Assembly: GCA_030683995.1 (NCBI GenBank)
Contig: JAUXPH010000030.1
Coordinates: forward strand, 1-64,000
Source: Lutibacter sp.
GTDB taxonomy: Bacteria; Bacteroidota; Bacteroidia; Flavobacteriales; Flavobacteriaceae
DNA length: 64,000 nt
Direction of reading: 5' to 3'
The translations under genes and the position numbers were made by a program. The notes beneath the pieces were generated by a model. That model was not told the origin of the DNA. It ran no database searches and saw nothing but the letters and a program-made list of their open reading frames with translations. Position 1 is the first letter of the stretch, and every line of letters starts with the position of its first letter. Shown here piece by piece: positions 3,921 through 12,802 of this stretch.

Positions 3921-5093
3921 TTAAATAATAATTGAAGTTGCTCCTTCTCCAATACTGTCGCAAATATAATGATTTTCCTGACAATATTGCATTAAGTTGC
4001 TTTTTATGAAATTGTTAACAGTCTCTTTTTCCTTTTCCGGGAACAACACGTGAACATTGGCGCCAGCATCTAAAGTGAAACAGATATTAGAATTCGTTTG
4101 TGCCCTAAAATCCCAGATTTCATTGATTATTTTCAAAGTGTTTGGTTTCATCAGGATAAAATACGGATTACTGGTCATCATCATCGCGTGCAAACTCAAG
4201 GCTTCACTTTCCACAATGGCGATAAAAGCATGTAAATCGCCACTTTGAAGCACCTTTGAAATCTTTAAAATATTTTCATTCGCTTGTTGAAAGCGCTGTT
4301 TTGCAAACGGATGGTTGTACATTAATTGATGTCCGACTGTGCTGGAAACTTGCTTTTCGCCTTCATCGACCAATAAAATGGTGTCTTGGTAATTTTTAAA
4401 ATTATCGTGAATTTTATGCGGAAATTTTACGCCAAATAAATTGGAACTTCCTTCAATATCCGGGTGATTTCCCCAAACAATCAGCGGACCTTCAATGCTT
4501 CTGCACGCACTGCCTGAACCCAATCGCGCCAAAAAAGATGCTTTTTTGTTGAAATATTCATTGGTCATTGCCGGATTTATTTCCCGCTCCAAACTCATCA
4601 CGCACAAAGCCAAAGCACCCATTCCACTAGCGGAAGAAGCAATGCCGCTGCTGTGCGGAAAAGAATTTTGGGATTTTATCACAAATTCAAATTCCTTCAA
4701 AAACGGAGCATATTGTTCAATTCTATTGAAAAAAGTGGCGATTTTTGGTTTGAAATCTTCTTTTTTTTCGCCTTCGAAATAAATTTCAAAACTATGGCTT
4801 CGGCTCCGCTCAGCCACCTTTGATTTTACTTGGGAATCTTCGCTGTGCTCAGAATCCTTTGATTTTACTTGGGAGGCTTCGCTTCGCTCAGTGTTCAATT
4901 TCTTATATTCCAGTGTTGTCAAGGTAAAACAGGCATCCAACGTAAAACTGATGGAAGCGTTTTCGGGAATTTGAGGCTCTTGCTTGCCCCAATATTTTAC
5001 CAAGGCAATATTGCTTGGCGTTTTCCAAGTGAAGCTTCCGTTGTTAATATTTTCTATTGAAAAATCTTTTAAAATAAAATCGGTTTCAGTCAA
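3921..5093 (-). CDS. mvaD: Diphosphomevalonate decarboxylase carrying an internal repeat insertion
   Basis: Converts mevalonate diphosphate to isopentenyl diphosphate with ATP. It has the N-terminal signature TPSNIALVKYWGKQ (residues 25-38) and the GHMP loop HSSGIASSASGMGALAL (147-163). At 390 residues it is longer than expected because residues ~69-100 are three tandem 13-residue units (ERSEASQVKSKDS, EHSEDSQVKSKVA, ERSRSHS...). These are encoded by an in-frame array of the interspersed repeat at 4796-4896. The reading frame is intact on both sides and the insertion falls in a strand/loop near the start, so the enzyme is probably active (inference). A minus-strand TACCTTTG box (5115-5108) is a possible promoter. 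First gene of mvaD-mvk-ubiA. Confidence 0.92.
   Translation of the reverse strand: MTETDFILKDFSIENINNGSFTWKTPSNIALVKYWGKQEPQIPENASISFTLDACFTLTTLEYKKLNTERSEASQVKSKDSEHSEDSQVKSKVAERSRSHSFEIYFEGEKKEDFKPKIATFFNRIEQYAPFLKEFEFVIKSQNSFPHSSGIASSASGMGALALCVMSLEREINPAMTNEYFNKKASFLARLGSGSACRSIEGPLIVWGNHPDIEGSSNLFGVKFPHKIHDNFKNYQDTILLVDEGEKQVSSTVGHQLMYNHPFAKQRFQQANENILKISKVLQSGDLHAFIAIVESEALSLHAMMMTSNPYFILMKPNTLKIINEIWDFRAQTNSNICFTLDAGANVHVLFPEKEKETVNNFIKSNLMQYCQENHYICDSIGEGATSIII
4796..4896. repeat. In-frame tandem array of the 23-bp interspersed repeat inside mvaD
   Basis: One near-consensus unit (4796-4818, GGCTTCGGCTCCGCTCAGCC plus ACC) is followed by two diverged units. The CAG of each unit is at 4811, 4850 and 4889, an exact 39-bp period. 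The spacer TTTGATTTTACTTGGGA is the same in both intervals. The period is a multiple of three, so mvaD remains open. Confidence 0.9.
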
Positions 5094-9970: not shown

Positions 9971-10921
9971 TTACAACACCATTTCTTTATAAGGAATCAC
10001 CGTAGAAAAACCCTTTTGATTAAAATAATTTGCACTGTCTTCGTTCCCCGTGGCCAAAATAAAATCGCCGCCCCAAGCGCCTAAGCTTTTTGTTTGTCCG
10101 AAATAATCTGAAAATAATTCTTGCTGTATTGTTTTTAACTGTATCGTTTTTGAAACGATTTGCTCGTGTTCCTTCATCAATTTTTCAAAATCGGATAATT
10201 TAGTACAGGTCAAAAAACCTGCAGACAATTCGGATATTTGTTTGAGTTCTGAAGTCAGATTTCCCTTCAATTTTTTATATCTTTCAATGCCTTCCCTGCT
10301 GTTTTGCTTTTTATTCAAATGCACAAAATACAGTTGATTCCTAAAAGTCGGATTGAAATTCACTTCCTCAATAACAATTTCCGTGTTGCGTTTCGTGAAT
10401 AAAATTGGCGAATTGTGTTGTGCGCAGGCTATGTCGTAACCGCTTCCTCCAAAAGTGTTTTCCAATAATTTATACGGATTCACTTTTGCCCAATTTGCGA
10501 TATTGTTAATTAAAGTTGATGATGTTCCCAATCCCCAGTTTCTTGGAAAATCTAATTTAGTTTTAACCAAAAATCCCTTTTCCGAATTTAAAAATGCCGG
10601 ATTTAAATTTTGGGTTTCTCTTAAAATTTTATTTAAATTTTCAGCAATCGTGTCTTTTCCTCCATCTTCAACTGCTTCAAATGTGGCATTCGCCAATCGC
10701 AATTTAGGCAAATCGAAAATGGCTTCGAGCCAACATTCTCCTTCATTGGTAAAACTTTGCCAAATTAATTGTGGTTCTTGAATGAGTTCAACAGTTAAAT
10801 CTTGTCCGCAAGTTGTTGGAACCGCTAAAGATTTTGCACCGTCAAGCACAAAATATTCACCGGTTAATAATAACTTCCCGTGGCTTCGGCTCCGCTCAGC
10901 CACCTTTTGATTTTCTTTCAT
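9971..10921 (-). CDS. GHMP kinase of the 'GYDIA' type, N-terminus recoded by a repeat
   Basis: 316 residues. It shows the GHMP start GKLLLTGEYFVLDGAKSLAVP, an ATP loop WGLGTSSTLINN, and the diagnostic GGSGYDIACAQ motif. GYDIA kinases accompany HMG-CoA reductase in Bacteroidetes and may supply the phosphomevalonate kinase step, since no other candidate for it is seen in this window (inference). Residues 7-13 (VAERSRS) are encoded by a 23-bp repeat at 10882-10904, so the original start region has been replaced or extended in frame. The ATG at 10921 is the only sensible start. The stop abuts a module B repeat. Confidence 0.85.
   Translation of the reverse strand: MKENQKVAERSRSHGKLLLTGEYFVLDGAKSLAVPTTCGQDLTVELIQEPQLIWQSFTNEGECWLEAIFDLPKLRLANATFEAVEDGGKDTIAENLNKILRETQNLNPAFLNSEKGFLVKTKLDFPRNWGLGTSSTLINNIANWAKVNPYKLLENTFGGSGYDIACAQHNSPILFTKRNTEIVIEEVNFNPTFRNQLYFVHLNKKQNSREGIERYKKLKGNLTSELKQISELSAGFLTCTKLSDFEKLMKEHEQIVSKTIQLKTIQQELFSDYFGQTKSLGAWGGDFILATGNEDSANYFNQKGFSTVIPYKEMVL
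10882..10904. repeat. 23-bp interspersed repeat within the GYDIA kinase N-terminus
   Basis: A consensus copy (GGCTTCGGCTCCGCTCAGCC plus ACC), read on the minus strand as VAERSRS. It has the same orientation as the mvaD copy and is inverted relative to the copies flanking the GIY-YIG gene. Confidence 0.9.
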
Positions 10922-10985
10922 TGGTTATTTTTTGATTTCGCTTTGCTCAATTACAAATTATTTTATTCACTTTATTCCTTCACTC

Positions 10986-11095
10986 GGTGGCTGAGCGGAG
11001 CCGAAGCCCAGTTTATTTTATTCTCTCTCCTGTGGCTGAGCGGAGCCGAAGCTCAGTTTTACTCATCATCCAGGTGGCTGAGCGGAGTCGAAGCC
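10986..11095. repeat. Left ~110-bp direct repeat flanking the GIY-YIG gene
   Basis: Three copies of the 23-bp unit (10986-11008, 11032-11052, 11073-11095) are separated by TTTATTTTATTCTCTCTCC- and TTTTACTCATCATCCA-containing spacers. The same three-unit layout and the same spacers recur at 11432-11540. The third unit encodes the C-terminal GFDSAQPP of the GIY-YIG protein. Confidence 0.9.
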
Positions 11096-11395
11096 ATTTT
11101 TGTGATGTGATTCATTTTGGCACTCTGAAAACTTTTCTAAATCACTATAATTATTTTCAATCAAAGCTTCTTTCTTATTTCTGCTCCAACCTTGCACTTG
11201 TTTCTCCCTATAAAAAGCTTCATCAATTCTTTGAAATTCTTCATAATACAATAAAACAACAGGCAATCTTTTTGCCGTGTGATTAGCTCCAAATCCATTT
11301 TGATGCTGCTCCAAACGAATTTTTAGGTCTTTGGTACTTCCTGTATAATATGAACCGTCAGAACATTCCAATATATACATATAGCCTTTTACCAT
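11066..11395 (-). CDS. Single-domain GIY-YIG nuclease bracketed by direct repeats
   Basis: 109 residues, nearly all one GIY-YIG domain: the YMYILECSDGSYYTGSTKDL segment carries the paired Tyr motifs (YIL and YTGST in place of GIY-YIG). This is followed by the catalytic Arg in LKIRLEQHQNG and a YREKQVQGWSRNKKEALI segment with the usual Glu/Lys. This is the small family related to the YhbQ/UPF0213 and Slx1 nuclease fold, which cuts DNA. The last residues, NGFDSAQPPG, come from the flanking repeat. The gene lies between HMG-CoA reductase and the GYDIA kinase, inside a cassette bounded by ~110-bp direct repeats. It may drive or have travelled with the repeat (inference). Confidence 0.88.
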   Translation of the reverse strand: MVKGYMYILECSDGSYYTGSTKDLKIRLEQHQNGFGANHTAKRLPVVLLYYEEFQRIDEAFYREKQVQGWSRNKKEALIENNYSDLEKFSECQNESHHKNGFDSAQPPG

Positions 11396-11431
11396 AGCTT
11401 TTTTATTTTTTTACATCTACAAATTCATCCA

Positions 11432-11540
11432 AATGGCTGAGCGAAGCCGAAACCCTGATTATTTTATTCTCTATCCAGTGGCTGAGGAAACCGAAGCCCA
11501 ATTTTACTCATCATCAAGGTGGCTGAGCGGAGCCGAAGCC
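11432..11540. repeat. Right ~110-bp direct repeat flanking the GIY-YIG gene
   Basis: Three units (11433-11454, 11477-11498, 11518-11540) with the same spacers as the left copy (TTATTTTATTCTCTATCC and TTTTACTCATCATCAA). The middle unit has lost two bases. The third unit runs into HMG-CoA reductase and encodes its C-terminal ASAPLSHL. Confidence 0.9.
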
Positions 11541-12802
11541 AGTTTGTTATACGCCTCAACCACAGCATTGTGCGTGATGGTTTTGTGCTCAAAATAATCA
11601 ATTAAAAATACCTTTTCTTTATTGCTTGCACCCAACTGCTTGATAATATTTGTCAAGTGCATTTTCATATGTCCTTTTTGGATTCCCGCTGTTGTCAATG
11701 CCCGTAAAGCAGCAAAATTTTGCGCCAAACCGGCCACGGCAATAATTTCCATCAATGCTGTTGCGGAAGGATTCCCCAACAATTGCAAAGAAAATTTCGA
11801 TAAAGGATGCAAAGAAGTTAATCCGCCCACAGTTCCCACAGCCAAAGGAATATCAATCCAAAATTTAAAAATACCATTTTCTATGCTGGCATTTGTCAGG
11901 CTTTTATAGGTTCCGCTTCGCGCGGCAAAAGCGTGAACGCCGGCTTCAATCGCCCTAAAATCATTTCCTGTTGCTATCACAACCGCATCAATGCCATTCA
12001 TGATTCCTTTATTATGGGTAACCGCCCGGTGAGGTTCTGCGTTCGCAATTTGTATGGCTTGCACAAACTTTTGCGCCAAAGCTGCTGAATCTTCGGCATA
12101 TAAATCTTCCACATCACAACTCACTTCGGCGTGAACCAGACATTCAGGAACGTAATTTGATAAAATGCTCATCACAATTTGGATGTCTTCTTTTTCAAAT
12201 TCCTTTGCGATCACTTCCAAGCAAGAATTTATAAAATTGGCGCCCATACTGTCGGCAGTTTCAAAAGTGACATGCAGCTGATAATAATTTTGAAGATCGG
12301 CAGTTTTATCGCGTAACTCAATATCTAAAATCCCGCCGCCACGTTTGCGCATATTTTTGGTTATCGCATCGGTAACTTTAAAAAATTGCGCTTTTTTTGA
12401 GTTGAAATAGTTTATAAGTTCAATTTTATCGCCTTCATACATAAAATGTACCTGCCCTATTTTTGTGGTGGAAATAACCGTGGCTTTAAATCCGCCCCGA
12501 GTGCTCCAAAATTTCGCCACCAAAGAAGCGGCCGCAACCACCGAACTTTCTTCGATAACCAAAGGAATGGTATATGATTTTCCGTTAATCACAAAATTTG
12601 GCGCAACGCCAAACGGCAAATAAAAATTTGTTAAGGTATTTTCAATAAAATCATCGTGCAAGTTTTGCAATATTTCATTCGAATTCCAATATTGCAATAA
12701 AACCTGTTTCGCCTTCTTATCATTTTTAAAGAAATGTGCTATCAGCCAATCTATTTTTTCAAGTTTGCTCAACTTTGAAAATCCGTTAACATTTTTTGAC
12801 AT
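11504..12802 (-). CDS. Hydroxymethylglutaryl-CoA reductase with repeat-encoded C-terminus
   Basis: Reduces HMG-CoA to mevalonate, the committed step of the mevalonate pathway. The 432-residue sequence carries STRGGFKATV, the substrate motif ADSMGANFINSCLE, THNKGIMNGIDAVVIATGND (cofactor region) and a His in QKGHMKMHL near the C-terminus. It lacks a membrane anchor. It resembles class II bacterial reductases, often called 'degradative', although here it sits with biosynthetic genes. The final residues ASAPLSHLDDE are encoded by the interspersed repeat and its spacer (11504-11540). A minus-strand TATCTTTG box (12835-12828) with TTG 22 nt upstream is its likely promoter. Confidence 0.93.
   Translation of the reverse strand: MSKNVNGFSKLSKLEKIDWLIAHFFKNDKKAKQVLLQYWNSNEILQNLHDDFIENTLTNFYLPFGVAPNFVINGKSYTIPLVIEESSVVAAASLVAKFWSTRGGFKATVISTTKIGQVHFMYEGDKIELINYFNSKKAQFFKVTDAITKNMRKRGGGILDIELRDKTADLQNYYQLHVTFETADSMGANFINSCLEVIAKEFEKEDIQIVMSILSNYVPECLVHAEVSCDVEDLYAEDSAALAQKFVQAIQIANAEPHRAVTHNKGIMNGIDAVVIATGNDFRAIEAGVHAFAARSGTYKSLTNASIENGIFKFWIDIPLAVGTVGGLTSLHPLSKFSLQLLGNPSATALMEIIAVAGLAQNFAALRALTTAGIQKGHMKMHLTNIIKQLGASNKEKVFLIDYFEHKTITHNAVVEAYNKLASAPLSHLDDE

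Follow-up and report, generated by a model that had tools for sequence, protein, structure and literature searches.

The closest precedent for the cassette described here appears to be Ssn, a family of small GIY-YIG single-strand nucleases that is reportedly tied to the dispersed NTS repeat of Neisseria (the report is said to have appeared in Nature Communications in 2025). The Ssn family is defined by sequence-specific cleavage of single-stranded DNA only, and its homologues are said to have different target sequences. Set against this description, the gene studied here is alike in having a repeat nearby that is also dispersed in the genome, but differs in the core of the repeat, TGAGCGNAGYCGA, in the occurrence in Bacteroidota plus several other phyla, and in the self-bracketing cassette, the empty sites and the in-gene copy.

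The earlier note on this DNA had compared the locus with the REP/REPIN repeats and their RAYT (TnpA-REP) proteins, for which excerpts of three papers describe a gene flanked by a dispersed hairpin family, with inverted pairs and solitary copies (PMC3116915, PMC8266576, PMC3733652). The comparison is apt in that the window gene is flanked by a dispersed hairpin; the enzyme here is, however, a GIY-YIG protein and not a tyrosine transposase, and the element carries no GTAG tag. Because the enzyme family differs, the comparison concerns the mode of action and does not assign the gene to that system. According to parts of a 2013 survey, the CGTC-tagged REPs, including dRS3 and the rickettsial RPE-4 and RPE-6, are short hairpins found in five phyla including Bacteroidetes, are in some cases intragenic, and are apparently without a dedicated transposase (PMC3733652). 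The window's element differs from these in carrying no CGTC tag; by eye, both the CGTC/TGTC tag and the AT stem start are absent from GGTGGCTGAGCGGAGCCGAAGCC. At the level of titles and abstract openings, no paper linking GIY-YIG proteins with bacterial palindromic repeats was recognised in the literature searched.

The cassette in the window and its hairpin element

The window is a stretch of 64,000 nucleotides from Lutibacter sp. (assembly GCA_030683995.1, contig JAUXPH010000030.1, positions 1 to 64,000). The earlier note had described in it a minus-strand ORF with a single GIY-YIG domain, enclosed by two arrays of three repeat units each (10986-11095 and 11432-11540), ending in residues encoded by the repeat and lying between the genes for HMG-CoA reductase (HMGR) and GYDIA kinase. 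Each of these points was borne out, the coordinates included (C-terminal residues GFDSAQPPG), and the observation of a repeat-bracketed GIY-YIG gene is confirmed as real. The features are as follows.

4796..4818, minus strand: hairpin element, in frame in the diphosphomevalonate decarboxylase-like ORF (3921-5093, minus strand)
9971..10921, minus strand: GYDIA family GHMP kinase (NF040656, 423.9 bits); initial residues (MKENQKVAERSRSHGK) cassette-derived
10882..10904, minus strand: outer inverted hairpin element within the opening codons of the GYDIA kinase; marks the cassette's outer boundary
10986..11008, plus strand: first of the three hairpin elements downstream of the nuclease gene
11031..11053, plus strand: second of the three downstream hairpin elements
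11066..11395, minus strand: GIY-YIG gene, single domain (PF01541), 109 aa; tail encoded by a hairpin element
11073..11095, plus strand: third of the downstream hairpin elements; shares sequence with the end of the nuclease ORF
11432..11454, plus strand: first of the three hairpin elements upstream of the nuclease gene, with 2 mismatches
11478..11500, plus strand: hairpin element, degenerate copy 2 of the upstream array (by eye; folded)
11504..12802, minus strand: HMG-CoA reductase (PF00368, TIGR00532); final residues ASAPLSHLDDE cassette-derived
11518..11540, plus strand: third of the upstream hairpin elements; encodes the HMG-CoA reductase C-terminus

The GGTGGCTGAGCGGAGCCGAA unit has 6 matches in the window at no more than 2 mismatches and none in 100 shuffles, and pieces of the two arrays align to each other with 89% identity across 53 nt and 91% across 55 nt. 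By eye, the second array has a degenerate middle unit (about 11478-11500). Two further copies, absent from the earlier note, are the inverted one in the kinase ORF and the one in the decarboxylase-like ORF, the latter accompanied by degenerate copies at about 4790-4905. The NF040656 model match to the kinase begins at residue 12. In the decarboxylase-like gene one loop carries in-frame pieces that differ between species, some of them other palindromes as judged by eye; the loop peptides of the Lutibacter species include VAERSRS, RHAELVSASHEN and QPELVSGS (window 3921-5093; L288, L289, L290, L192, L293), and they resemble the palindromic elements within rickettsial genes.

The nuclease matches PF01541 with 61.7 bits against a cut-off of 22.6, which places it in the GIY-YIG superfamily; GIY-YIG is the only Pfam domain in the gene, and the domain of a tyrosine (HUH Y1) transposase was not found. 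Residues Y17, G19, R27, H31 and E64, which are presumably in the catalytic region, are invariant in a 10-sequence alignment, and among 120 wider homologues the strict motif pattern is found in 92 and a second pattern in 115. The gene is under purifying selection (dN/dS of 0.04-0.07 against four relatives over 95 codons). NCBIfam and PADLOC gave no match to it, and PHROGs just one weak match, to an endonuclease (E 0.038). The closest solved structures by sequence are those of the UPF0213 proteins BH0048 (1zg2, 78 bits) and EF2693 (1ywl, 64 bits), both named hypothetical proteins in the PDB.

The 23-bp direct-repeat unit proposed in the earlier note is present, but the repeat is a hairpin, with the core TGAGCGNAGYCGA set within a strongly covarying stem, and its commonest bracket around the gene is convergent. 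In a set of 251 distinct elements from the surroundings of homologous genes, the five column pairs of the stem that adjoin a nearly invariant T-A pair are Watson-Crick in 237, 226, 230, 200 and 155 cases, as compared with 156, 101, 135, 140 and 76 expected from the make-up of the columns. In an alignment of 58 of 74 elements, from which near-duplicates and odd ones had been omitted, the covariation score was 0.461. Shuffled alignments scored 0.133, with 0 of 500 reaching the observed value, and slid ones no more than 0.146; the core, which the search itself had set, is uninformative on covariation. Folding energy alone, tried as support for the hairpin, failed, since DNA folding of the elements is weak (-2.5 to -5.3 kcal/mol, z-scores +0.77 to -1.92), and the support came from covariation. 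The tip would consist of tandem G.A pairs, a GNA-type loop and a bulged pyrimidine. Elsewhere, core hairpins occur as opposed pairs about 57-67 bp apart, reminiscent of REPIN doublets (G131:C2:51384-67028; L078).

All five sites of the exact 21-bp form with a GGC stem in the whole draft genome fall in the window. When the outer stem was left free, the core CTGAGCGNAGYCGAAG was found at 62 sites genome-wide, with none for the reversed-pattern control; of the 56 sites examined beyond the locus region, 46 fall outside long ORFs, 7 within them and 3 close to the end of one.

Gene and element across genomes

The earlier note had tied the nuclease to the repeat. This tie holds well beyond the window: among the best 80 of 519 homologues by score, the strict core lies within 400 bp of the gene at 76 loci and a looser motif at 77. 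These 80 named loci, for which the query included tail-bearing proteins, come from Bacteroidota, Cyanobacteria, Desulfobacterota, Ignavibacteria, Cloacimonadota, Acidobacteria and others, with many metagenome bins among them. At the same best 80 of 519, the core reaches 8.3-8.9 copies per kb in the first 100 bp from the gene and about 0.1 per kb past 400 bp (reversed control 0), the density within 400 bp being about 80 times that further out. Elements stand on both sides at 50 of these 80 loci, and in 41 the ORF enters the downstream element. The nearest upstream copy is on the plus strand in 42 of 55 loci and the nearest downstream copy on the minus strand in 54 of 71; this convergent bracket is the commonest, with 29 of the 50 two-sided loci, and the direct-repeat form is therefore a lineage-specific arrangement.

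Closer to the window, a homologue of at least 66% identity was found in nine Lutibacter genomes among 60 relatives, and eight of the nine carry the core at the gene. Lutibacter oceani, a laboratory strain, also has the gene (L148), and L023 and L230 are examples of homologues with another tip at their loci. The ninth, G013, has sibling hairpins with the tips GCTTGTC or GCCTGTC plus one core copy 305 bp upstream, and in G040, from another family, a third tip replaces the core at a 74% homologue. The 60 relatives also have 19 GIY-YIG genes that are more distant, and the core was found at none of them (0/19), nor was a perfect stem with the GCGNAGNC tip found near any of them.

The earlier note had proposed to test whether repeat number tracks the gene, and in Lutibacter the number is higher where the gene is present. 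Among 37 genomes of the genus, the core count is 5-83 in the nine with the gene (median 26) and 0-47 in the 28 without it (median 3.5), where a homologue of 56% identity in G023 was scored as absent. The Mann-Whitney p value is 2e-4, or 3e-4 after subtraction of the copies at the gene and 0.003 in genomes at least 90% complete; the local copies subtracted are slightly overstated for some genomes, a bias that opposes the link between gene and repeat. Across the phylum (392 genomes), 45 of 62 genomes with a homologue (E <= 1e-20) have the core, as do 70 of 330 without, and at least 5 copies are present in 26 of 62 and 35 of 330, respectively. The odds ratios are 9.8 and 6.1, uncorrected for shared ancestry; the reversed pattern occurs once each in 2 of the 392.

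By the earlier note, repeats equally abundant in close relatives without the gene would refute the tie. A situation close to this, which speaks against a strict link, was observed: many copies without a close homologue are found in G003 (47) and G019 (40) within the genus and in G062 (164) and G131 (136) within the phylum. When ten many-copy genomes of this kind were searched again at E 0.001, the core was found beside a distant GIY-YIG gene in G378 and beside a broken one in G228, and related hairpins beside a distant one in G131. G062 gave no GIY-YIG match at this threshold, and the six other genomes had no core within 400 bp of their matches.

Empty sites, for which the earlier note had proposed to look, exist. 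Of 30 Lutibacter HMGR-kinase loci, from 34 of 38 genomes with HMGR, 29 were readable; at 15 of these junctions the two genes are directly adjacent with no element, and at 8 the gene lies there together with elements. The others are an array and no gene (G003), elements and no gene (G032, G030), a short remnant as judged by eye (G018), and another insert (G024, G009), the nuclease gene of G009 lying just past the kinase. The junction is empty in G005, the HMGR of which is 98% identical to that of the window, and relative to it the window cassette has taken the place of about 31 bp, among them the stop of HMGR and the start of the kinase. Accordingly, HMGR ends in ASAPLSHLDDE in the window and in VQDK in the closest empty-site relatives, G005 among them, and the kinase begins with MKENQKVAERSRSHGK in the window and MEYYSNGK in G005. 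No target-site duplication was seen at this one site by eye, and with about 31 bp replaced, ordinary transposition is therefore not indicated. The boundaries of the cassette at this junction vary among Lutibacter lineages.

Other GIY-YIG genes and their repeats

At several loci devoid of the core, sibling elements share the frame CTGAG...TCGAAG and differ in their tips. Tip type clusters on the protein tree, with 16 changes as compared with 43.6 after shuffling (0 of 200 as low), in a tree that is weak, with few columns and 67 of 126 inner branches open, so that the clustering may partly reflect relatedness; four duplicate loci and rows shorter than 75 aa were omitted from it.

The upstream and downstream flanks of each gene were compared for a shared word of at least 13 nt, at 77 of the 80 named, 18 of the 19 distant and 23 of the 27 paralogue loci (L252, L256, L261 and L275 of the paralogue loci were omitted, and others for short flanks). 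Of the 77 named genes, 44 had such a word (2 of 138 in control windows), as did 15 of the 18 distant genes (0 of 34) and 21 of the 23 paralogue loci (2 of 46). Nine loci are tandem neighbours or lie beside tRNA-like sequence and were therefore dropped from a stricter count, in which the distant and paralogue loci gave 13 of 16 and 14 of 16 (controls 0 of 30 and 1 of 32); pooled, other repeats bracket 27 of 32 of these more distant small GIY-YIG genes, with 1 of 62 controls. A perfect inverted repeat of at least 6 bp is present at the shared word in 13 of these 27, where siblings with the G.A core score as having none because the core is not perfectly palindromic. That most of the related genes examined have their own repeat on the flanks suggests that such enzymes recognise some of the dispersed bacterial repeats.

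In the two-contig genome G329, 6 of 8 GIY-YIG paralogues have a bracket of their own, and the pair L268 and L277 have a 27-bp word in common; tandem paralogues with common flanks occur in G190 and G084. The window's genome has nine GIY-YIG matches, and of the eight other than the window gene, L281, L283, L284 and L287 share a flank word of at least 17 nt and L282 one of 13, and L280, L285 and L286 have no shared word or an AT-rich 13-mer, L285 and L286 sitting in long ORFs and L280 near a contig end. Two paralogues of this genome lie in another repeat-rich region, of the CGTCATTGCGAGG...GCAATGACG type (G000:C71:218500-229500; L178), and L273 and L278 are GIY-YIG genes with repeated tRNA-like sequence on their flanks, as judged by eye.

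The likeness to the CGTC-tagged REPs lies at other loci: hairpins of this type occur within 400 bp of 7 of 52 small GIY-YIG genes, with 18 sites in 53 kb at GIY-YIG loci as compared with 5 in 108 kb of more remote sequence; the reversed control gave 0. Small GIY-YIG genes are candidates for the enzyme of the CGTC repeats. CGTC/TGTC-tagged hairpins stand beside the small GIY-YIG genes L274, L268, L266 and L272 (G329, G019).

Explanations of the cassette

The genome comparison shows the association of gene and element, the hairpin (through covariation), the purifying selection, and the presence or absence of the cassette at one junction. The earlier note had supposed that the nuclease may spread the repeat or be spread by it, and its interpretation is partly supported: the nuclease-repeat tie and the likeness to REP and RAYT stand, the checks it proposed of copy number and empty sites came out in favour, and the direct-repeat form does not hold as stated. 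We consider it probable that the cassette is a stand-alone GIY-YIG endonuclease together with hairpins that are its own recognition targets, including the following mechanism. The protein would bind the element as a single-strand hairpin, with the covarying stem, the tandem G.A mismatches, the GNA-type tip and the bulged pyrimidine, and would cut in or beside it while it is single-stranded, that is, on the lagging strand, in incoming transformation DNA or in an extruded cruciform. Repair of the cut might then place copies of elements, or of the gene along with the elements that bracket it, at new sites; each GIY-YIG subfamily would keep a different hairpin, and the solitary elements elsewhere would be non-autonomous derivatives. 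The enzyme most likely works as a single-strand nuclease specific for hairpins that are its own targets, in the manner of Ssn with NTS or RAYT with REP, and any movement driven by it is inferred. In favour of this explanation stand also the clustering of tip types, the different brackets of other small GIY-YIG genes and the higher repeat load where the gene is present. Against it weigh the genomes with many elements and no close homologue, the weak folding energies, the missing target duplication, the weak tree behind the tip clustering, the choice of the best-scoring loci, the perfect inverted repeat at just 13 of 27 shared words and the common flanks of tandem paralogues in G190 and G084.

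A domesticated target-site system, in which the nuclease cuts incoming or exposed hairpin-bearing single-stranded DNA and modulates transformation or recombination, the elements being kept and not moved by it, seems to us unlikely though worth weighing: the purifying selection, the position of 46 of the 56 own-genome elements outside long ORFs and the reported description of Ssn and NTS in such terms agree with it, but the cassette at 8 of 29 junctions, with 15 empty and free of the repeat, does not, and in-frame coding copies are needless for a purely useful site. The same 8 filled and 15 empty junctions would suit a homing-type cassette, whose nuclease cuts the empty HMGR-kinase duplex and is copied in by repair with the repeats as mere recombination handles; this is improbable, as the cassette boundaries differ among Lutibacter lineages, the gene of G009 lies past the kinase, and the core accompanies the gene in several phyla.

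Ordinary RNA-level hairpins, such as terminators or mRNA stabilisers lying near a nuclease gene by coincidence, would likewise form hairpins mostly outside long ORFs, but T-rich tails follow only 29 of 283 elements, Rfam gave no match in 10500-11900 of the window, density is concentrated at GIY-YIG genes and falls away from them, and both orientations occur, one coding copy being in frame, so that we regard this explanation as very improbable. Chance or an assembly artefact is hardly credible: the window's genome is a 71-contig draft, but the same cassette is found in other assemblies, including the single-contig G011, and the shuffles contained no match to the unit.

Beyond the nuclease with its own hairpin targets at this one locus, we are evenly divided on a wider reading, that many orphan palindromic repeats of bacteria (the TGAG...CGA family and CGTC-type REPs) generally have a small stand-alone GIY-YIG nuclease as their dedicated partner, these nucleases forming a hairpin-specific class, parasitic or domesticated, that parallels the RAYTs, with the specificity in the tip and with paralogues each having a repeat family of its own. 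Palindromic repeats for which no enzyme is at hand are widespread, and the pattern of self-bracketed GIY-YIG genes offers a candidate enzyme for several of these families. The target of such a nuclease can be guessed from the flanks of its gene, which makes the question directly testable and would yield many predicted hairpin-specific nucleases.
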